IMG/VR virus record: IMGVR_UViG_3300046012_000369
Span: 1 to 39,826 of that record
Origin: a virus
Strand: one strand, 5' to 3'
DNA length: 39,826 bases
The position numbers were made by a program, and so were the translations under genes. This document shows, piece after piece, positions 3,921-39,826 of the stretch (position 1 is the stretch's first letter; each line of letters begins with the position of its first letter). The notes beneath the pieces are model-generated. The model saw only the letters and a program-made list of their open reading frames with translations, searched no databases and was not told the DNA's origin.

Positions 3921-4458
3921 TGCGGTGTTGCCTCCCTATCGGCGAGACGTTCTTCGCCCGCTCGATCTTTGCATCTTCGATTGCCTGTGCGTCGCTCTGC
4001 TCTTTCTCGTAGCTGGCGATCAATACGTGTCGCGGGCACATGCGCTGGCCAGCGTCGCAGGCCTTGCGGCATCGGCTCGGCTTCTGTTCCGTTCCCTCGT
4101 TGTACATGCAGCCGCCTCCGGTGCCGAGCTGGATGTCTGTAAGCGTCGTGATGTGCGGCTGCTTCATCGTCTCCGCCTCCTTCTGAGGTGTCTGGTGTTT
4201 GTGCTTCGGGCAGTAGTCGAGCGTGTCGTTGAGCTTCGTGAATCCGCCGCCGATGTCGGTGTGCTGTCCGCCGCGCGTGCTTGCGCAGTGGTCGCACATC
4301 TCGGCGTCGCAAGTCTTTCCGTCGCCGAGCGGGAAGTCGCAGAGCTTCGCGACCTGGCCGCGCTTGCAAAATGGGCAGAGCTTCTTTCTTTCTCCGCTGC
4401 GTCCGCGGTTGATGTGGATGACCGCGCCGTTTGGTCCTTTGAGCCAGTCGCAGGGCAT
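3913..4458 (-). CDS. Hypothetical cysteine-rich protein
   Basis: 181 residues, not recognised. It contains CPFCKRG (about 28-34), then further Cys pairs and His residues (DAEMCDHCAS, DYCPKHKHQ, GGGCMYNEG, RMCPRHV), so two or three zinc sites are likely. The C-terminus is a charged helix. The start codon shares one base with the previous stop (TGATG), and AGAGG lies five bases upstream. Operon position between unknowns and the endolysin gives no functional clue. Confidence 0.7.
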   Translation of the reverse strand: MPCDWLKGPNGAVIHINRGRSGERKKLCPFCKRGQVAKLCDFPLGDGKTCDAEMCDHCASTRGGQHTDIGGGFTKLNDTLDYCPKHKHQTPQKEAETMKQPHITTLTDIQLGTGGGCMYNEGTEQKPSRCRKACDAGQRMCPRHVLIASYEKEQSDAQAIEDAKIERAKNVSPIGRQHRNG

Positions 4459-4952
4459 CAGGGCCTCTTCCCTGACGTATCGAACAGCATGGATAGCTCG
4501 ACGGTGTCGGCCTGCAGCCGCACGCTAAAGTTCTCTACTGTGACCGAGCCTGCGTCAATGCGCGTGGCGACCTGGCGCAGCAGCTCGCGCTCGCCGACCT
4601 TGAGCTTGCGCAGCGCCTTCCAGTTGATCGGCTGATAGATCCTCGCGCGGCCGTCGAGGATCTCCAGCTCGCCGTCAACCTCAATCCACCAGAAAGGCTC
4701 ATCCGGCCGCTGACGCCGGTCGCGCCGCTTGACCGGGCCTTTGTTGCCCGCGTCTATCAGCGCGAGTCTTGGCCGGCCTTTGTCGCTGTGCGAGGTAAAT
4801 GGAACGGTGCACTCGATCGACTTCACCGCGATCTGTGTCTCGATGGTGCCCTGGTCAATCGCGCAAAGATTCGGCCATTGCACGCGGCACGTGAAATACA
4901 CGCGCCATCGCCGCTTCGCATAGATCGTCGGCTTCGTCGGCTTCTTCTTCAT
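4458..4952 (-). CDS. Hypothetical basic protein
   Basis: 164 residues, not recognised. The N-terminus is very basic (MKKKPTKPTIYAKRRWRVYF); the centre has alternating strands (PFWWIEVDGELEILDGRARI) and the end looks strand-rich. No catalytic motif is seen. The ATG at 4952 overlaps the previous stop as ATGA and has GAGAGG nine bases upstream; the ATG at 4961 sits on top of that RBS and is less likely. Confidence 0.65.
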   Translation of the reverse strand: MKKKPTKPTIYAKRRWRVYFTCRVQWPNLCAIDQGTIETQIAVKSIECTVPFTSHSDKGRPRLALIDAGNKGPVKRRDRRQRPDEPFWWIEVDGELEILDGRARIYQPINWKALRKLKVGERELLRQVATRIDAGSVTVENFSVRLQADTVELSMLFDTSGKRP

Positions 4953-5176: not shown

Positions 5177-5519
5177 GTATGTTCTCCTCCGCGATCGCGG
5201 CATGTTTCGCCAGGAGGCGCCCGAGGTCGCGCGCTTGGCGAGGCGAGAAAACAATATGGCCGTTCCCTTCGGCATCCGTCAGTAGATCCGGATGATTGAT
5301 CACAACCTCGTCGCCCTTTTCTGTCACGCCGACGAGCAGCTCGCCGCAGGGTTTAGCAGGCAGCTTGGATCGCAGTGCTAGGCCCTGCATAATCAGGAGC
5401 ACCTCTTCGGTGTTAGGGCGCGTGTGCACCTGCGGCTGATATCCGGCCGCGACCAACTGAGCGCGAATCTCCTCGAAAGCTCGCGCACTCACCTCCATCA
5501 CGGCATAGCTGAAAGTCAT
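5163..5519 (-). CDS. Hypothetical protein
   Basis: 118 residues, not recognised. Mixed helix and strand (ARAFEEIRAQLVAAGYQPQV, then EVLLIMQGLAL), ending in a long helix (PRQARDLGRLLAKHAAIAEE). It begins at the ATG of an ATGA overlap with the DnaC-like gene, behind AGAGGAGG. The frame is open upstream, but that extension lies wholly inside the DnaC-like gene and looks like a shadow. Tight coupling with the helicase loader suggests a place in DNA replication or modification; nothing more can be said. Confidence 0.65.
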   Translation of the reverse strand: MTFSYAVMEVSARAFEEIRAQLVAAGYQPQVHTRPNTEEVLLIMQGLALRSKLPAKPCGELLVGVTEKGDEVVINHPDLLTDAEGNGHIVFSPRQARDLGRLLAKHAAIAEENIRAKR

Positions 5520-6292
5520 CCTCTCCTCTTTCCGATCGCCGCGCGCTGATCTGCGCCCTCGATGTCGATCGCAATGCACATTTCCTGCAATCGTGAAAAC
5601 ATCCGTTCTCCGATGCGATCGCCGAGCGTCTCCTTGCGCATCACGCTCAAAGGCTGGTCCATCATTGCCGCGTAGTTGCCGGCCGCTACCAGCTTCGGCC
5701 CGGCGCCGGCCGCTGGCGTCCATCCCGCGCCATGGTTCGGGTAGTTGTTCGCGATGATGGTCGAGCGCGCCGCGTTATACCTGGTGTTCAAGATGTGCTC
5801 GGTCATCGCGAAGGTCCACTCCGTGGATCTCGCAGCGCCCACTTCGTCGATCGCCAGGATGTCGGCGGCGAGGATCCTTTTGAGCAGCGCGTGCTCGGTC
5901 ACATCGCTCGACGGGTTGAACGTCGCCTTGACCTCGGTAAAGAACGCCGGCAGGTCCACGAAGGCGATGCTCGCGCCCCACTGCACATTGCAGCCCTTGA
6001 GCATCGCGACGGCCAGGTGCGTCTTGCCCACGCCGCACGGCCCGGTCAGCAGCATTCCCAGCTCGCGCCGTGTTGTCCATTCCTCGACGTAGCGGCGGCA
6101 CATCAGCAGCGCGGCTCCGGCCGATTTGCTCAGTTTGCCGTCGTAGGTCTCGAAGTCCTTCGCGACGTACCGTTGCGGGATGCCCGCGCGCTCAAGCCGC
6201 GCATGCAGCTTCCGCTCGACGCTGCAGACGCAGTCGCGCACGCGATTATTCTCGAACACCATCCCTGTGTCGTTGCAGGTGGGGCAGCTCAC
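5516..6292 (-). CDS. DnaC/IstB-type helicase loader ATPase with N-terminal zinc site
   Basis: 258 residues from GTG at 6292, which overlaps the previous stop as GTGA behind AAGGAGG. Residues 1-30 hold CPTCNDTG and CVC, a zinc ribbon like that of DnaC/DnaI loaders. The AAA+ core shows Walker A TGPCGVGKTH (83-92), Walker B ILAIDEVG (145-152) and sensor 1 ANNY (181-184). Known homologues place the replicative helicase at an origin after an initiator has melted it. With the initiator-like protein at 38647-39705 this makes a lambda O/P-like pair that would recruit the host helicase. Family assignment is firm; the host partner is inferred. Confidence 0.88.
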   Translation of the reverse strand: MSCPTCNDTGMVFENNRVRDCVCSVERKLHARLERAGIPQRYVAKDFETYDGKLSKSAGAALLMCRRYVEEWTTRRELGMLLTGPCGVGKTHLAVAMLKGCNVQWGASIAFVDLPAFFTEVKATFNPSSDVTEHALLKRILAADILAIDEVGAARSTEWTFAMTEHILNTRYNAARSTIIANNYPNHGAGWTPAAGAGPKLVAAGNYAAMMDQPLSVMRKETLGDRIGERMFSRLQEMCIAIDIEGADQRAAIGKRRG

Positions 6293-6468
6293 GCGGCCTC
6301 CTTGGTGATCCACGTCTCATGCACCCACACCTTGCGGCGAGGGTTCGGCCGGTTCGGGAATGGTAACCACTCGTCGCATTCGACTCGGACCTGGAAGCCG
6401 CCCCACGGTGACGGCATCACGGAGTGGATGATGGCGTTCTTCCCGATGTGGCGCACGGAGATCGCCAT
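6289..6468 (-). CDS. Small hypothetical protein
   Basis: 59 residues, not recognised. Rich in Trp, Pro and Arg (PNPRRKVWVHETWITKEAA at the C-terminus), strand-like. It begins two bases after the previous stop at ATG 6468, with only a weak RBS (GGACAA), and ends in a GTGA overlap with the helicase loader, so its translation probably feeds that gene. The frame is open upstream to 6636 but only as a shadow of the previous gene. Confidence 0.6.
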   Translation of the reverse strand: MAISVRHIGKNAIIHSVMPSPWGGFQVRVECDEWLPFPNRPNPRRKVWVHETWITKEAA

Positions 6469-32188: not shown

Positions 32189-34327
32189 TTACGCGCCGGC
32201 GATTGTGCTTGGCCCTTGGCCGGCGAGAGTCTTTTCATCGTTCGATCGTTGCAGCAGTCCCTCGGCGCGATCGAGCGGGATACCCGCCTCGTCGCGCTCA
32301 AGCGCTTTCTCTGCAACTGTGGTCGCGAGGTCGTTCTGCGATTTGCGGTCCGCGAGGTTGAGGGCATTGTCGCCCTTGATCTTCTCGACCGTCGTTGCCT
32401 CCTGCACCTTCGCGTTGGGCGCATTCATGGTGAGCACCATCTGCTTCTCCTGATCCGTCATCGGCACGATGATCTGGTCCTCGATGCGGAACTCGCTGAC
32501 CTGGAAGAGCACGTCGAGGATGGTGTCGAGCGAGATGGTCTTGCCTTCGTTGTGGAGCTGCTGCAGCAGTTGCGGCTGCTGGAAGATCTCCATCAGGTAG
32601 GGCAGCTGCTGCGCCATGGCGACCTTTGCGGCCAGCTTCGCCGCGGCGAGCATCTCAATCTGGATCTCGGCCGACATGAATTCGTCGGCGTCGAAGTCCT
32701 TCATGATCTCGGCGGCGAGTTTGCCGTTGAGGATCTGCAGCACCTCCTTGGTGGGCATGTAGATCTTGCACATATCCACCAGCATGTAGAGGAAGGGAAC
32801 CAACAGCCCGAGCTCGATGTTCTCGACCGGCGTCTGCACGCGGCTGTCGGCCTTCGCCGCGATGCGGCCGGCGCCAGTCGCGGTGCGCGCCGCGCTCGAT
32901 CCTTTGCCCTGTAGCTGTCCTTGCATGAAGGTCGCGTCGGCGCCGCTCGTTTCTTCGCTCGACGTTTTCGAGTACTGGATCATCTGCCAGGCCTCGGGCG
33001 GAATCTTCGGCATCTCCATCACGCCCATTGCCTTGCGCACGTCGTCGCCGGTGACGGCAAAGAAGCCGCCGGCGCGTATGGTGCGGTTTCCGGTCGGCGC
33101 ATTCTGACCCATGATGTGCAGGATCGCCGGGTTCGCCTGGTACGCGAGTAGGTTGAGCGCGTGGTCGAGCGTGCCTTGCTCGATGCGCTGGTCGCCTCCA
33201 ACCAGCTTGCCCATGCCCATGCCCCATCCGGTGTTGAGCTTGCTCCGCCAGTTCGCAGTGAAGTGCGGGATGCGGCCGAGACGGTGTTTGTCGTTGCGGA
33301 TGGTGACGGTGCGGCTGTTGAAGCAGAGGCAGGTCATCACGCGGCTCTTGTCGTGCCGCTCAAGCATCATCATCGGCTGGCCGAGAGGGTCGGCGGTGGT
33401 TGGCCGGCTGCGTTCCTCGGCGTGCGAGACTACGCTGCCGCCGAGCGAAAGGCTGCGCTCGGTGTCCGTGCCGCCTTCGGCGCTCGCCTCTTTGTTGTGA
33501 AAGAAAAACGCCTTGAGCGCCTCGGCATCGGGGATCTTGTAACAACCCTCGTTGCGCATCCCCTCAAGGTCCATCCACGTTGGATAGTCGATGTCGACTA
33601 CAAAGCCGCAGAGGTCGGGGCGGTTCGGCGTGCGCCAGCCTGGATCGAAAAGCGTCGTGCCGAGCAGCCGGTTTTCCAGCCATGGATAGCTTTCCTCGAT
33701 CGTCTCGTCGACTGTTTCGTAATCGAGGCTCTCTTCCGTCGTGACCTTTGTGCCGCCCAGCGGGAGGGTGACGTCTTCCTTCGAGGCCTTCGCTTTTCTC
33801 TTACGCACCACGCGAGGTCGCTTACTCCACCCGCCTTTCCATACGCCGGTTCCGTGCAACGCCTGGCTGCTTATACCGAGGCCGGTCCAATACTGGAAAT
33901 CCATGCGGTCGAGCAGTGTGTCGAGCAGCGCGGTCCAGCCCTTGACGGATAGCTCGCTGGTTTTGCCGCGTGGCCGAATAAGGAACGGCGGCTTCTGCGC
34001 AAAGAGCGCGTTCTTCACCGCGTCGCCCATCGTGTTCGACTGGTTATTTACGGTGTAGCGCGGCACGCGGGCGCGCGTCGGATCTGCGAGGGAGTCGAGC
34101 AGCGGCACGTCGTAGAGAATGTCGTTCTCGACCCATTGCTCTGAGAACATCTCGCTATCGACAAAGACGCGCGCGCGGTTGTAATCCTGCACCACGAGGC
34201 TTGCCGCCGCCGCGTCGTCATACTCCGGCAATTCACCCGGCGCCAGGTTACGCGTGTAGACCTGTCCCATGGTGATTTCGGCAAACCCGTTGTAGCCGAC
34301 CGGCATTGCCTTGCTGTCTTCAGCCAT
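32189..34327 (-). CDS. Portal protein
   Basis: 712 residues, the usual size of podovirus (N4/T7-like) head-tail connectors. Visible features are an N-terminal helical domain (DDAAAASLVVQDYNRARVFV), the clip and wing region with ATGAGRIAAKADSRVQTPVE, and a long helical C-terminal end rich in Gln and Lys. The position directly after terL, overlapping it by 8 bases with GGAGG five bases before ATG, supports the call. It forms the dodecameric ring through which DNA enters and leaves the capsid. Confidence 0.82.
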   Translation of the reverse strand: MAEDSKAMPVGYNGFAEITMGQVYTRNLAPGELPEYDDAAAASLVVQDYNRARVFVDSEMFSEQWVENDILYDVPLLDSLADPTRARVPRYTVNNQSNTMGDAVKNALFAQKPPFLIRPRGKTSELSVKGWTALLDTLLDRMDFQYWTGLGISSQALHGTGVWKGGWSKRPRVVRKRKAKASKEDVTLPLGGTKVTTEESLDYETVDETIEESYPWLENRLLGTTLFDPGWRTPNRPDLCGFVVDIDYPTWMDLEGMRNEGCYKIPDAEALKAFFFHNKEASAEGGTDTERSLSLGGSVVSHAEERSRPTTADPLGQPMMMLERHDKSRVMTCLCFNSRTVTIRNDKHRLGRIPHFTANWRSKLNTGWGMGMGKLVGGDQRIEQGTLDHALNLLAYQANPAILHIMGQNAPTGNRTIRAGGFFAVTGDDVRKAMGVMEMPKIPPEAWQMIQYSKTSSEETSGADATFMQGQLQGKGSSAARTATGAGRIAAKADSRVQTPVENIELGLLVPFLYMLVDMCKIYMPTKEVLQILNGKLAAEIMKDFDADEFMSAEIQIEMLAAAKLAAKVAMAQQLPYLMEIFQQPQLLQQLHNEGKTISLDTILDVLFQVSEFRIEDQIIVPMTDQEKQMVLTMNAPNAKVQEATTVEKIKGDNALNLADRKSQNDLATTVAEKALERDEAGIPLDRAEGLLQRSNDEKTLAGQGPSTIAGA

Positions 34328-36035
34328 TCAATCCTCCGAGCATGGGCCGAAGACCATAGCTGCGCGCCTGCACCGGCTCGGGCGCTTCGATGGCGGCTTC
34401 GACCTCGGCCGCGCCGCCCTCTCCGTAGATTCTGCTATACCACGCATTGTCTTTCGCGACCTGATGCATCACGCGATCCTCTTCGGACACGTGGCCTTTG
34501 AACGTCGCGATCGGAATGCGCAGCGCGAGTCGGCTGATTACGTCGACCAGGCCATTCGACTCGACCATGCCGAAATTCGTGAACTGGTTTTGCAGTTCGT
34601 CGCTCTGTCCGCTCCACGTTGAAAACCACAGTCGGCCCGCGCGCATCATCGGCTGCAGGTTCTTCATGCGGCCGCTGCGTATCGCGTCGTCCATCTCGAA
34701 CTCCGGCCGCTCGATGCGCAGGCTCCAATTCTGCCTCGTTGCCTCGTTGTAGATGTGTGGAATCATCGACTCGCTGCCGGGTGTGTTCTCGATCACAACA
34801 TCGCCGCATTGGGCCTTTTTACAGCCCCGCACGATGCGCTCACATAGCTCGGTCGGGGTATAGACTCCGCGCCAGGAGTCGACGACGTAGACGCGTGAGC
34901 CGGCATAGAGGACCGCCGCGCCTTCGGCATAGCGCGCCATGTACGGCTTCGCATCGCATTGCAGCCGCCAACAAATCTTCACGTCGCCGGTCGCTGGCAC
35001 GCGCTCGCCGTCGAGTGTCGCCTGACGAAATGCGGCGGCCGGGAAGAGAGAGACGCCGCCTCCCTGCGGATCGTTTTGCTGCTGGCACATGAAAATGCGA
35101 TAGTCGGCGCGGAATTTCGAGCGCAGCGACTTGTAGGGCAGCATCTCCGGAAACAGCAGGGTCATGTCTTCTTCGGCGGGGAACTCGCCCTCGACCAGGC
35201 GGTCTCCGCTCTTGACGATCAGAGAGGACCGGATGAGCGTCTTCCACTCGCCCTCTTCCATCGTGTTCAGCATCCGCCCGTAGGCGTCGAAAGGGTGGTA
35301 GCGCGTGCCGCGCACATTGGTGTAGCCGCCGGTGCGCAGCGTGTTCGCGTTCGTGGTGTAGGTGTTCCACACGCGCTCGCGGCTGGCGTCCGATGCGTCG
35401 AGGCCGCTGTTCTCGGTGTCGACCATATCGTCCGGATTGATGATCCATGGGTGCCAGCCGGACTGCGCCGAGCCGACCGAGGTCGAGTACAGCGTCGGCT
35501 CGATCTCGTCGCGTGTGGAGCTGGGCGCGCGGTAGGTGGCGCGCGTCTTTTCGATCACCAGCTCCGGGAAGATGCGCTGGAAGATGGTCAGGTAGCCGTT
35601 CTTGGCTTTCGTGAAGATCTTCGCGGTGCGCCTGGTGAGCGCGGCGCCGAGCGGCTGTGTCGCCGTCTCGTTGACGATGGTGATGTCCGGGTCCGTGCAT
35701 ATCCATTGCACGGTGTCGATGATGCCCCAACTGGTTTTGAAGGTGTGGCGCGGGTCGAGGTGCATCCGGTTCTTGATGGGGTGCTGGTCCTCGATCTTCC
35801 GGCCGGGACACTTCTCGACATAGAGGTCCTTGACGCGCTGGTGAACGTCGAGGCGGAAGTCGTCGAAGCCGAGCAGCGGCGCGAGAAAGAAGCCGTCCGT
35901 GATGCATCGGTGCCGCAGCTCCGCCCTGTAGTCGGCGTCGGAGTCGATTCGCTCACGGTTGATGGAGGCGATATCGACGGAGATCGCCAACCGATGGCGC
36001 TGACTCTCCGTCAACTCGCTCAGCTCGTCTTTCAT
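34320..36035 (-). CDS. terL: Terminase large subunit
   Basis: 571 residues. An N-terminal packaging ATPase with a deviating Walker A in HLDPRHTFKTSW (about 92-103; Lys100-Thr101), the strand WICTDPDITIVNETA after it, and a C-terminal RNase-H-like nuclease domain with VYVVDSWRG and GDVVIENTPGSE holding candidate acidic metal ligands. The deviant P-loop (RHTFKT instead of GxxxxGKT) is common in TerL proteins. No small terminase is recognisable; the Cys-rich protein at 37359-37865 or another small upstream gene may serve. The gene lies 30 bases after the preceding stop. Confidence 0.85.
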   Translation of the reverse strand: MKDELSELTESQRHRLAISVDIASINRERIDSDADYRAELRHRCITDGFFLAPLLGFDDFRLDVHQRVKDLYVEKCPGRKIEDQHPIKNRMHLDPRHTFKTSWGIIDTVQWICTDPDITIVNETATQPLGAALTRRTAKIFTKAKNGYLTIFQRIFPELVIEKTRATYRAPSSTRDEIEPTLYSTSVGSAQSGWHPWIINPDDMVDTENSGLDASDASRERVWNTYTTNANTLRTGGYTNVRGTRYHPFDAYGRMLNTMEEGEWKTLIRSSLIVKSGDRLVEGEFPAEEDMTLLFPEMLPYKSLRSKFRADYRIFMCQQQNDPQGGGVSLFPAAAFRQATLDGERVPATGDVKICWRLQCDAKPYMARYAEGAAVLYAGSRVYVVDSWRGVYTPTELCERIVRGCKKAQCGDVVIENTPGSESMIPHIYNEATRQNWSLRIERPEFEMDDAIRSGRMKNLQPMMRAGRLWFSTWSGQSDELQNQFTNFGMVESNGLVDVISRLALRIPIATFKGHVSEEDRVMHQVAKDNAWYSRIYGEGGAAEVEAAIEAPEPVQARSYGLRPMLGGLNG

Positions 36036-37384: not shown

Positions 37385-37865
37385 CGTCGTTCGGGACCTC
37401 GGCCGGGTGATCCTTTTGGTACTGCGTGAGAATTGCTAGGACCTGGTCGAGCTCGGGCGTCGGGTCGTGTGGTTTGTCGAGGCCGCGGGCACCGAAGCCT
37501 AGATCGGCCATCTCGGGACGCAGGTCGACTAGGTAGCGGCGTCCCTGCATGATGGCACGCACAAAGTCTTTGCGCGGCACGCTGGCCTTGGTCACTACCA
37601 GCTCGTAGACCTCGGGGTAAGCCAGTTCCGGATATCTCTCTTCCCATCGTTTGAACTTTGTCCAGGATCGGCGCTGCGATGGCGTGCTGCTGCGATTGCA
37701 GAAGCGGCAGAACTTCGTAGAGACGCGCCGCTTTCTCATGCGCGCGTGGACCTCCTGGCACTTCTTTGAGCACGTCACTGCGCGCTGCTTCACGCGCTCG
37801 GCTGGAATCTCTACCTTGTCGACCACGCAGTACGTTTTCATTCTCAGGATGTCTTCATCGGCCAT
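37359..37865 (-). CDS. Cysteine-rich protein upstream of the packaging genes
   Basis: 168 residues from ATG 37865 (AGGAG six bases upstream). N-terminal half with C-V-V-D, CSKKC and KFCRFCNRSSTPSQR, probably two zinc knuckles in a basic context; the rest is helical (EVYELVVTKASVPRKDF, LDQVLAILTQYQKDHP). It precedes terL by three genes, so a DNA-binding packaging role (small terminase) is conceivable but unproven. Confidence 0.6.
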   Translation of the reverse strand: MADEDILRMKTYCVVDKVEIPAERVKQRAVTCSKKCQEVHARMRKRRVSTKFCRFCNRSSTPSQRRSWTKFKRWEERYPELAYPEVYELVVTKASVPRKDFVRAIMQGRRYLVDLRPEMADLGFGARGLDKPHDPTPELDQVLAILTQYQKDHPAEVPNDDGYDTKGD

Positions 37866-38385
37866 GGTTCTCTCCTTTTGGGATGTTCTCGAATTGCCAG
37901 CCAAGCTCGCGATGCCAGCGCACACCCACAAAGTTGTATTCCGGAAAGTGCTCCGCAGCGACTTTGATCTTTACTCGTGCGTCGTCTCTCCAAAAACCCT
38001 TCGTCTCGTGCATCTCGATCGCTCCGCCGGCGAGCACCACGGAGAAATCGACGTTGTAGTAGGTCCGCTGCGCAAGGCGCAATTTCAGTGGCTCAAACTT
38101 CCAATGGAGGATCTCTCCCGCCTGGCGCCGCAGTTCAAGATGCTGCGAGTACTTCGTTTCGAGTTTGTTCATCTCGCCGGCTTTTGAGGAGCTGGGCTTC
38201 GCCGCCTCGCCGATGGCTTCTGCGTTGCCGCGAAACACGTCGGTCGCGACGCGGTGGGGTGTGGACTTTACGCCCGCGCGCCGCGCTGATTCAGCACATG
38301 CCTCCTGCCAACTCGTCGGCTCCGATGTAGTTTCAATCGATACCTCCGTATTGATATTTTGTTGACATTTTGTTTCCATCACCAT
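37855..38385 (-). CDS. PD-(D/E)XK nuclease, DUF1064-like
   Basis: 176 residues. The second half shows MNKLETKYSQHLELRRQAGE (helix), YYNVDFSVVL (catalytic Asp about 113) and IEMHETKGFWRDDARVKIK (E-x-K at about 127-129), with a strand and helix after them. This is the core of DUF1064/PD-(D/E)XK phage endonucleases, several of which act as Holliday-junction or structure-specific nucleases. The N-terminal 70 residues are hydrophilic and could be a linker. First gene of the late operon, 11 bases from the divergent regulator; GAGAG four bases before ATG 38385, with Met3 (38379) also possible. Confidence 0.75.
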   Translation of the reverse strand: MVMETKCQQNINTEVSIETTSEPTSWQEACAESARRAGVKSTPHRVATDVFRGNAEAIGEAAKPSSSKAGEMNKLETKYSQHLELRRQAGEILHWKFEPLKLRLAQRTYYNVDFSVVLAGGAIEMHETKGFWRDDARVKIKVAAEHFPEYNFVGVRWHRELGWQFENIPKGENHGR

Positions 38386-38390
38386 AGAAC
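38351..38390 (+). promoter_or_regulatory. Promoter of a possibly leaderless transcript, with an 11-bp direct repeat
   Basis: TTGACA (38362-38367), 17 bases, TAGAAC (38385-38390): -35 perfect, -10 4 of 6. Transcription would begin near 38397, the A of the regulator's ATG, and no RBS precedes that ATG. TTGATATTTTG (38351-38361) and TTGACATTTTG (38362-38372) form a direct repeat of 11 bp (10 of 11 identical) overlapping the -35 box, a possible operator. All of it lies within the start of the divergent nuclease gene. Confidence 0.55.
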
Positions 38391-38396
38391 TCTCTC

Positions 38397-38642
38397 ATGG
38401 CTAAACCTACTCGTCAAACACCAAATTCAGAGGGCTCAATACAGCTCGGATTTCGCGGCTCTGCACAGGAGCAAATACTGCTGAATCATGCCGCCAAACT
38501 GCAAAATCGCAGTCGTAATTCATTCCTCAAGATTCACTCCCTGCAAGCTGCGCGCGCTGTGCTGAAAGAGAACGGCGTTGACGAAACTAGCCTCTTCCCG
38601 AAGGCTTCAAAGGTAGTGCGCTCACGCGCAAAGGCGGCGTAG
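38397..38642 (+). CDS. Ribbon-helix-helix (DUF1778-like) regulator
   Basis: 81 residues. GSIQLGFRGSAQEQILLNHA, then AAKLQNRSRNSFLK and a following helix, match the strand-helix-helix layout of DUF1778/TacA-type DNA-binding proteins, which are antitoxins or repressors. No toxin gene lies beside it: the next gene is the initiator. It is divergent from the late operon with 11 bases between the start codons, so it could repress both directions. No RBS is visible; the transcript may be leaderless. Confidence 0.6.
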   Translation: MAKPTRQTPNSEGSIQLGFRGSAQEQILLNHAAKLQNRSRNSFLKIHSLQAARAVLKENGVDETSLFPKASKVVRSRAKAA

Positions 38643-38646
38643 CCCC

Positions 38647-39705
38647 TTGGCTTTACGCGGCGTTCCCGAACACCCGAAATTTGCTGCGCTCAAGGCCAAG
38701 TTGTCTCTCTCGAAATTCGAGGGTATGGGGCTGCTTGAGACGCTGTGGCACTTCACTGGTCGCTACGCACCACGCGGCGACATCGGCCGATTCCCCGACG
38801 AGCAGATCGAAGCGTGGCTGGAGTGGAAGGCGAAGCCTGGCGCGGCGATCGCTGCGCTCATCGACACCGGATGGATCGATCATCACCCGAAATACCGCCT
38901 CGTCATCCACGACTGGCACGAACACGCCGATAACACGACGAAAAAACAGGTCAGTCGCCGCGCTAAGACGCAGCTAGATAAAGGTTTATCTGTCGATTGG
39001 GTATTCGTCGGTCTGGAGGGCCTTCCCCTCAGGATGTCCGGACACCGTCCGGACATGTCTAGCACAAACGGTAATGTGTCACGTCCCCCTGCCCCTGCCC
39101 CTGCCCCTGCTCCTGCCCCAGAGCCAAATACCCCCTCGACTACGTCTCGGGGGAAGCGCGCCGCCGAAAAGCGCGGCACGCAGGCCCCGGAAGTGCCGGG
39201 AGGCGAAGAGGTTGCGAATCCAACACCTGCATCACGGAATGGGCATCCCTTGGCATCGGAGGCGAGTCGCATAGCCGACGTACCCAAGAATGAGGCCGGA
39301 CGCCTCCTAGAGCCGAAACCCAACGGGTTACAGCTATCCGGTGGAGGTTCCAAAAGGCCGCATCGCGTTGCCTCATCCGACGCTCGTTTTGTCGATTTTC
39401 GGGACCACTTGAAGGCCTATTATGGCGCGGTCAACAGGCAGTCTGCGGGATCTACTCCATGGGGTAAGGTCGAGGACCGCGCTCTCTCCGATCGGCTGCA
39501 AGCTGAGCCGTCGCTGACACTGGACGATCTTGCGGTGCGCCTGGGCCATCTGGTGACGGCGGTGCGGATTTGCTCCGAAAAACCGAGGATGCGCAAGGGT
39601 GAGCATCGTGGTAATGTAGGGCCGCGAGACCCCTTGGCAGCTGTGATCCGCCGGCTACCGGAGTATGCGGACGGCCCGGTCGACGCGTTCGGCGAGAAGC
39701 TCTAA
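38647..39705 (+). CDS. Replication initiator-like protein (phage O / replisome-organizer type)
   Basis: 352 residues from TTG 38647, four bases after the regulator's stop, with AAAGG about ten bases upstream. The first 115 residues look like a winged-helix domain (LETLWHFTGRYAPRGDIGRF, AIAALIDTGWIDHHPKYRLV) as in phage replication proteins; a linker with a Pro-Ala repeat (APAPAPAPAPEP, about 150-160) and a long polar stretch follow; the C-terminal 100 residues (DFRDHLKAYYGAVNRQ, SLTLDDLAVRLGHLV) form a helical domain that could bind the helicase loader. The gene contains two iteron-like repeats (39035-39055), as lambda O contains its origin. Family assignment rests on layout and context. Confidence 0.6.
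   Translation: MALRGVPEHPKFAALKAKLSLSKFEGMGLLETLWHFTGRYAPRGDIGRFPDEQIEAWLEWKAKPGAAIAALIDTGWIDHHPKYRLVIHDWHEHADNTTKKQVSRRAKTQLDKGLSVDWVFVGLEGLPLRMSGHRPDMSSTNGNVSRPPAPAPAPAPAPEPNTPSTTSRGKRAAEKRGTQAPEVPGGEEVANPTPASRNGHPLASEASRIADVPKNEAGRLLEPKPNGLQLSGGGSKRPHRVASSDARFVDFRDHLKAYYGAVNRQSAGSTPWGKVEDRALSDRLQAEPSLTLDDLAVRLGHLVTAVRICSEKPRMRKGEHRGNVGPRDPLAAVIRRLPEYADGPVDAFGEKL
39035..39055. repeat. Two 11-bp palindromic repeats inside the initiator gene
   Basis: TGTCCGGACA (39035-39044, a perfect palindrome) and CGTCCGGACA (39046-39055), exactly 11 bp apart. The same unit recurs at 39719-39750 and is not found elsewhere in the window. They encode RMSGHRPDMS at the start of the linker, so coding constraint there is probably weak. 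Confidence 0.65.
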
Positions 39706-39826
39706 ACCTGTTTCCACCTGTACGGACAGTGTCCGGACAGTGTCCGGACACGCGCCCCCCCCCCGCGCCCGCGCCCTGCCGTCCTATAAACCAAAACAGT
39801 GATTCGGTCAAGATGGCGAACAATCC
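39706..39826. other. Gene-free right end with C10 run
   Basis: After the initiator stop this stretch holds the three palindromic iterons, then a run of ten C (39755-39764) in a GC block, then a moderately A-rich segment (39785-39799). An ATG at 39813 runs off the end; if 39826 joins base 1, that frame would code for only 14 residues (stop at 29-31). No other gene is seen. Together with 1-255 it forms the candidate origin region. Confidence 0.5.
39719..39750. repeat. Three 11-bp palindromic repeats downstream of the initiator gene
   Basis: TGTACGGACA (39719), TGTCCGGACA (39730) and TGTCCGGACA (39741), each 11 bp after the last; the second and third are perfect palindromes. They start 13 bases after the initiator's stop codon. 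Spacing and sequence repeat the pair inside the initiator gene, so one protein probably binds both clusters. Confidence 0.75.

Follow-up and report, generated by a model that had tools for sequence, protein, structure and literature searches.

Does a short palindrome that recurs inside and just behind the putative initiator gene of an uncultivated phage mark the place where replication of its genome begins? The DNA that raises this question, a virus record of IMG/VR with a length of 39,826 bp, is referred to here in full as the window; it encodes terminase, portal, head and endolysin proteins, indicating that it represents the genome of a tailed phage. With no more than one mismatch, the decamer TGTCCGGACA occurs five times in the whole 39.8 kb, two of the five copies carrying one mismatch, and these copies are split into two clusters. 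One is situated within the CDS at 38647-39705 and consists of iteron 1 (39035-39044, TGTCCGGACA, exact) and iteron 2 (39046-39055, CGTCCGGACA, one mismatch). The other (39719-39750) begins 13 bp past the stop codon and comprises iteron 3 (39719-39728, TGTACGGACA, one mismatch) and the exact copies 4 (39730-39739) and 5 (39741-39750), which together form a TRF array of period 11. Every successive spacing within either cluster is 11 bp. A previous sequence-only reading had described two clusters of this spacing as confined to the locus, and this is borne out, as no other copy with zero or one mismatch exists in the 39.8 kb; the remaining ten matches in the window carry two mismatches, occur at the rate expected by chance and all fall outside the initiator locus.

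The significance of the repeats differs between the two clusters. The presence of at least three copies of a 10-bp palindrome (at most one mismatch) within 40 bp is unique to this locus and was seen in none of 60 first-order Markov simulations, and a fivefold occurrence of any one palindrome in 720 bp arose in four of 100 such simulations. The GC-rich word GCGCCGGCGC likewise reaches five copies in 720 bp of the real window, yet its 30 copies are scattered across the window. The in-gene pair alone is not above expectation under synonymous-codon shuffling (p = 0.38); it is the 3' cluster, together with the relatives described below, that gives the repeat signal its strength.

The gene harboring the first cluster (38647-39705, plus strand, TTG start) encodes a protein of 352 residues in which an N-terminal winged-helix-type domain is connected by a disordered linker to a helical C-terminal part. 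Its earlier designation as initiator-like stands, both through a match to the replication initiation protein family PHROG 9474 (E 2.4e-14, residues 8-101) and through a resemblance in fold between its N-terminal domain and models of phage primosomal and replisome-organizer proteins (E 5e-5 and 5e-4, respectively, in a viral fold library that also returned two uncharacterised phage proteins). The PHROG match spans positions 12-105 of the 288 in the profile, and thus the N-terminal domain only. This DNA-binding-type domain, delimited by the alignment and the fold-library matches to residues 1-105 (38647-38961, plus strand) and containing RLVIHDWHEHAD, is predicted by AlphaFold with pLDDT values above 90 over much of residues 10-90, which form four helices followed by two strands. 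K11, G28, G44, G47, L85, H88, D89, W90 and H93 are invariant in a 30-member alignment. The linker has pLDDT values below 50, and the C-terminal helices at 245-267, 273-286 and 292-310 are modeled with low confidence. Iterons 1 and 2 (39035-39055) encode residues 130-137, after the end of the domain at about residue 105 and before the helices that start at 245; sitting 11 bp apart, they are read in different frames. They are followed by a CCCCTG tandem repeat (39086-39119, plus strand, TRF period 6), which encodes a Pro-Ala-rich part of the linker. A sequence search of solved structures with the initiator gave only spurious matches to this low-complexity linker, and Foldseek found no significant PDB match for the full-length model, as the disordered linker dilutes the comparison.

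Protein searches for relatives yielded 15 loci, a further set of 36 loci overlapping with the first, and nine loci from genome contigs, the latter including Edaphobacter lichenicola (L068), other Acidobacteriota, and one bacterium each of the Planctomycetaceae, Lentisphaerae and Nitrospiraceae. What these proteins have in common are the ~105 N-terminal residues, ending around [VI]HDWHEH, and all 29 aligned relatives also match PHROG 9474. Their C-terminal parts are diverse, with DnaD-like, O-like, primosomal and DnaA-N-like matches besides types that could be assigned to no family; O-like PHROG 345, for example, is matched by two aligned relatives. Pfam DnaA_N (1.6e-7) is found in one of 29 members, apparently in the C-terminal part encoded by L031 (3998-4783), as assigned by reading its sequence. 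Genes neighboring the initiators of relatives encode DnaB (L009, L066), SSB (L023, L045) or, downstream of the initiator in L017, a DnaC-type loader. A phylum-wide search recovered relatives in 5 of 396 Acidobacteriota genomes, so that the family appears sparse in this phylum, which, given the occurrence of relatives there, is also our guess for the host.

Some 30 relatives carry short repeats in the linker-coding DNA directly after the N-terminal domain. As a rule these are palindromic and differ from phage to phage, and in almost every member checked the repeat word is confined to the linker. TGTCCGGACA itself is found in the linkers of L023, L024, L036 and L045. L006 carries five sites of TTCCGGAA (one mismatch allowed), each 11 bp apart; the corresponding words are TTCGCGAA in L008, GGACAATGTCC in L009, TGTCCCGACA in L011, GTTGGCAAC in L016, TGTCGCGACA in L064, TGTCCAGACA in L065 and TGTCGAGACA in L068, and GGCGGACAAC is used by L007, L010 and L032. 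Many relatives have a Pro-rich or otherwise low-complexity linker at the matching place, and in many members the repeats precede such a Pro/Glu/Ala-rich stretch. Among the linkers of other members are a 9-bp GTGCACGAT-like array (L069, 4252-5250) and a linker encoded by a long CCTTTA tandem repeat (L067, 5995-6978). By the synonymous-shuffle statistic, the linkers of L012, L015, L037 and L046 contain no clear palindromic repeat. A 3' cluster was not seen in the close relatives, and a second cluster was found only in L017 and L026, where it is located 5' of the gene.

To separate signals in the DNA from those imposed by the protein, the null model shuffled synonymous codons and kept the encoded protein constant. 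Palindromic repeats at p<=0.05 occur in 17 of 39 linkers, where about two are expected (Fisher combined 5e-12 for the 39 linkers, with a p floor of 0.005 and related members that are not independent). The most over-represented 5-mer in 30 linkers is GGACA/TGTCC, with 67 occurrences against 21.9 expected (z 11.9); without the window and L023, a member found through the repeat itself, GACAA (z 10.9) and GGACA (z 10.5) rank highest. TGTC and GACA together occur 116 times in the linkers, compared to 56.5 expected and a shuffle maximum of 74, and are not in excess in the N-terminal domains (54 versus 50.6) or the C-terminal parts (63 versus 72.7). Half-sites in the same orientation show 35 spacings of up to 45 bp, whereas shuffles gave 3.7 on average and never more than 11. 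All 35 measure 10-11, 20-22, 31-33 or 42 bp, and 33 of them deviate from a multiple of 10.5 by no more than 1 bp. Significance attaches to the number of these spacings; the phased share by itself is not significant (0.94 versus 0.76 in shuffles), being high in shuffles too because the protein is fixed. Protein repeats in the Pro-rich linkers give lags of 12, 18 and 24 bp instead, and spacings of 10, 11 or 20-22 bp indicate repetition at the level of DNA rather than peptide.

Two search routes that did not start from the initiator protein led to the same kind of locus. The DNA pattern TGTCCGGACANTGTCCGGACA was present at ten loci among 2.9 million viral contigs, four of them at initiator genes (L017, L023, L024 and L026). 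L023 and L024, found in this way by DNA pattern, proved to be members of the initiator family with the repeat in the linker. L017 and L026, apparently one phage or two very close ones and therefore counted as one observation, encode a different initiator (PHROG 2509/9474) with four linker repeats, a DnaC-type loader gene downstream and a second cluster upstream of the gene, the sole other two-cluster arrangement seen. The other matches lie in varied contexts, that in L020 inside a head-protease gene. Arrays of TGTCCGGACA in apparently noncoding DNA were observed in L018 (near 4453-4560) and L019 (near 825-868), next to genes not recognised as initiators; these are possible origins with unlinked initiator genes. 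In the second route, an ideal 11-bp repeat was translated into the peptide CPDNVRTMSGQ, which matched 25 of 50,697 phages, 24 of which are Streptococcus phages. The matched genes bear annotations of replication initiation, replisome organizer, DNA replication or DnaD-like; at E values of 0.1-8 these matches are singly weak, and many of the records are close relatives. The linker of one of them, S. thermophilus phage CHPC982 (L080), contains GTTGGACAATGTCCAAC-type repeats, which are TGTCC/GGACA palindromes, with TTGGACAATGTCCAACC present twice and further copies of TGTCCAAC, directly behind the N-terminal part and ahead of a repetitive stretch of linker; a DnaI loader gene lies next to this initiator. 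A plasmid search with the iteron-encoded peptide gave no initiator match, and in a literature search for TGTCCGGACA in phage origins, the ten papers listed with the word have it in unrelated contexts (p53 sites, primers and the like).

Beyond the initiator gene, the DnaC-like helicase loader previously placed at 5516-6292 is confirmed by matches of the minus-strand gene at 5516-6313 to PHROG 50 (E 3e-49) and to Pfam IstB_IS21 (PF01695, AAA+; E 8e-13). A clamp-loader-like AAA+ ATPase (PHROG 5846, E 2e-27; Pfam AAA, E 2e-10) is encoded on the plus strand at 259-873 (start codon assumed), followed at 920-1816 by an anti-restriction ArdC N-terminal domain fused to an IrrE/M78-type peptidase domain. 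The initiator is immediately preceded by a small TacA1-like gene of the ribbon-helix-helix (RHH) class (38397-38642, plus strand; PF08681, E 1.2e-4); an RHH-type gene is found at this position also in L036 (3822-3998), and an HTH_17 gene occupies it in L068 instead. These small genes are possible regulators of the replication operon. Upstream of the RHH-initiator operon, a divergent intergenic region comprises the most AT-rich 100 bp of the window (38328-38427, 64% AT). Within it are the 50 bp of lowest stability in the window (38348-38397), which precede iteron 1 by ~640 bp, and an 11-bp direct repeat, TTGATATTTTG/TTGACATTTTG, at 38351-38372. This region is a candidate promoter and/or unwinding element; no sigma-70 consensus was found in it, and no AT-rich unwinding element adjoins either cluster as far as the contig reaches, which is 76 bp past iteron 5. 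The gene on its other side, divergent from the operon (37855-38385), encodes a DUF1064/Holliday-junction-resolvase-like nuclease, a homologue of which (53% over 88 aa) is found near the L002 initiator. The ends of the contig neither overlap nor have 15-mers in common within 600 bp; they are not joined, and the contig may be incomplete. Synteny in relatives was of no help in placing the 3' cluster beside the clamp-loader gene at the window start. GC skew, proposed earlier as a check, is weak and lends no support to an origin; it is uninformative here, since strand-biased genes confound it.

Lambda O, SPP1 gp38 and TP901-1/Tuc2009 Rep are established cases of proteins that bind an origin inside their own gene (PMC5043065, PMC6316719, PMC8965321). 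In lambda, O dimers bind to inverted-repeat iterons inside the O gene (PMC5043065); like the window, ori-lambda and other lambdoid origins have near-palindromic iterons in the middle of the initiator gene, and the phage supplies both initiator and helicase loader (PMC5043065, PMC7466680). However, lambda has four iterons of ~19 bp beside a 40-bp AT-rich unwinding region, whereas the window has 10-bp iterons at an 11-bp pitch, two in the gene and three after it, without an adjacent AT-rich stretch. As this element is absent next to the iterons, we describe the locus as one that would work like in-gene origins, rather than filing it as lambda-type. The repeats bound by SPP1 gp38 (G38P) are found both within gene 38 and at another site; SPP1, like the window, combines a replisome organizer with repeats in its own gene (oriL), a second set outside (oriR) and a separate loader, gp39 (PMC6316719). 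The second set in SPP1 is ~13 kb away, compared to 13 bp past the stop codon in the window, and the SPP1 origins, unlike the window clusters, have AT-rich unwinding elements. In TP901-1 and Tuc2009, the origin consists of direct repeats within the genes for ORF13 and Rep2009, respectively, to which these proteins bind (PMC8965321). These lactococcal systems and the S. thermophilus replisome organizers, with the TGTCC/GGACA palindromes of CHPC982, resemble the window in their in-gene repeats, but belong to phages of low-GC Gram-positive bacteria; for the N-terminal domain of the window protein, no significant sequence similarity to these organizers was found, and its fold is weakly similar to one Streptococcus replisome-organiser model. 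Finally, pSK41 Rep has a winged-helix N-terminal domain, Rep boxes centrally in rep, a dispensable encoded linker and a separate C-terminal domain (PMC5703833), and the window shows a comparable order of N-terminal domain, in-gene candidate binding sites, linker and separate C-terminal part. 5kbj and 4pta (Rep-DNA complex, MDR initiator) rank among the highest fold matches of the full-length model, with Z scores of 6.1 and 5.5 over 80 residues that lie in the range of common winged-helix matches, the former tied with unrelated winged helices; pSK41 Rep entries are not in the list of fold matches to the N-terminal-domain model, an absence that carries no weight against such a resemblance. None of 29 members matched Pfam RepA_N, and the window protein matched no O-like PHROG at E 0.001. 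The initiator probably works like the lambda-O and RepA_N systems; we do not claim membership in either family, because the protein matches neither.

Ribbon-helix-helix proteins typically bind short palindromic or repeated sites, and in both the window and L036 the initiator has an RHH gene immediately before it. The repeats might accordingly be conceived as operators through which the initiator or the TacA1-like RHH protein (38397-38642) regulates the replication operon, with replication starting elsewhere. This is unlikely, considering that the clusters lie within and after the gene and not at the promoter-like, AT-rich divergent region, that like repeats exist in the linkers of L002, L009, L017, L023, L045, L066 and others in which tblastn (1e-4) detects no homologue of the window RHH protein, and that the words vary between phages while their position in the initiator linker is constant. 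Nor is it credible to any real degree that the in-gene repeats merely reflect protein-level repetition: although the linker is Pro-Ala-rich and repetitive, and lags of 12, 18 and 24 bp are common in linkers, the iterons are spaced by 10-11 bp with copies in different frames, the enrichment survives synonymous-codon shuffling, and the 3' cluster is noncoding.

For the 3' cluster, which can form a 10-bp hairpin, a role as transcription terminator, packaging (pac/cos) or partition site could be envisaged, but we deem this very improbable. No T tract follows the cluster, and the sole terminator-like site is elsewhere and below chance level; the large terminase gene (34320-36035) is 3.7 kb away; no partition gene was recognised among the subset of proteins scanned; and the same word is present in the initiator linkers of other phages. 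More serious is a sub-case of the origin reading, in which one cluster only is the active origin and the other has decayed or acts as an autoregulatory site or, as suggested for SPP1 oriR, as a fork-barrier/recombination site. The in-gene set is down to two copies, compared to three to nine in several relatives, and the 3' array is better preserved; moreover, of the two SPP1 origins one is situated inside gene 38 and the other elsewhere, and replication is proposed to switch its mode when it stalls at oriR (PMC6316719). Against this, nothing distinguishes the two clusters functionally, and L017 also keeps two clusters around its initiator. We hold the sub-case to be quite conceivable, if short of probable.

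That distant relatives carry repeats of their own at the matching position of the gene makes the locus very probably a phage origin, built like that of lambda. The repeats most likely represent iterons, binding sites of the initiator encoded at 38647-39705 that mark the replication origin of the phage. The earlier proposal of a candidate origin in and beside an initiator gene, in the manner of lambda O/ori, thus gains support from the initiator match, the loader, the phased linker repeats of relatives and the neighboring genes. From this arrangement we infer a path from binding and dimerisation through looping, melting and helicase loading to origin firing. The winged-helix-type domain (residues ~1-105) would recognise the palindrome TGTCCGGACA, most simply as a dimer, and with the 11-bp pitch several initiator molecules would line up along the same side of the helix. 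Looping could bridge the ~670 bp between the two clusters; the nucleoprotein complex would then melt nearby DNA, and the helical C-terminal part may help to recruit the host DnaB helicase via the phage's DnaC-like loader.

Less ordinary about the system are the additional cluster 3' of the gene and the variety of C-terminal domains. It is tempting, if somewhat doubtful, to see the N-terminal domain and the iteron linker as a mobile 'origin cassette' of ~450 bp that has been placed on varied C-terminal parts, with a TGTC..GACA code extending from soil to Streptococcus phages; if true, phages could change their origin specificity in one step. Irrespective of this, a probable origin can be assigned to an uncultivated phage from sequence alone, and the initiator group as a whole would mark its origin at one place. 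Origins and binding words can thereby be predicted for about 30 divergent phage contigs, among them prophage-like loci of Acidobacteriota. The pairing of initiator domains with their cognate repeats provides a data set for the recognition code of winged helices, and suggests minimal replicons for hosts with few genetic tools.
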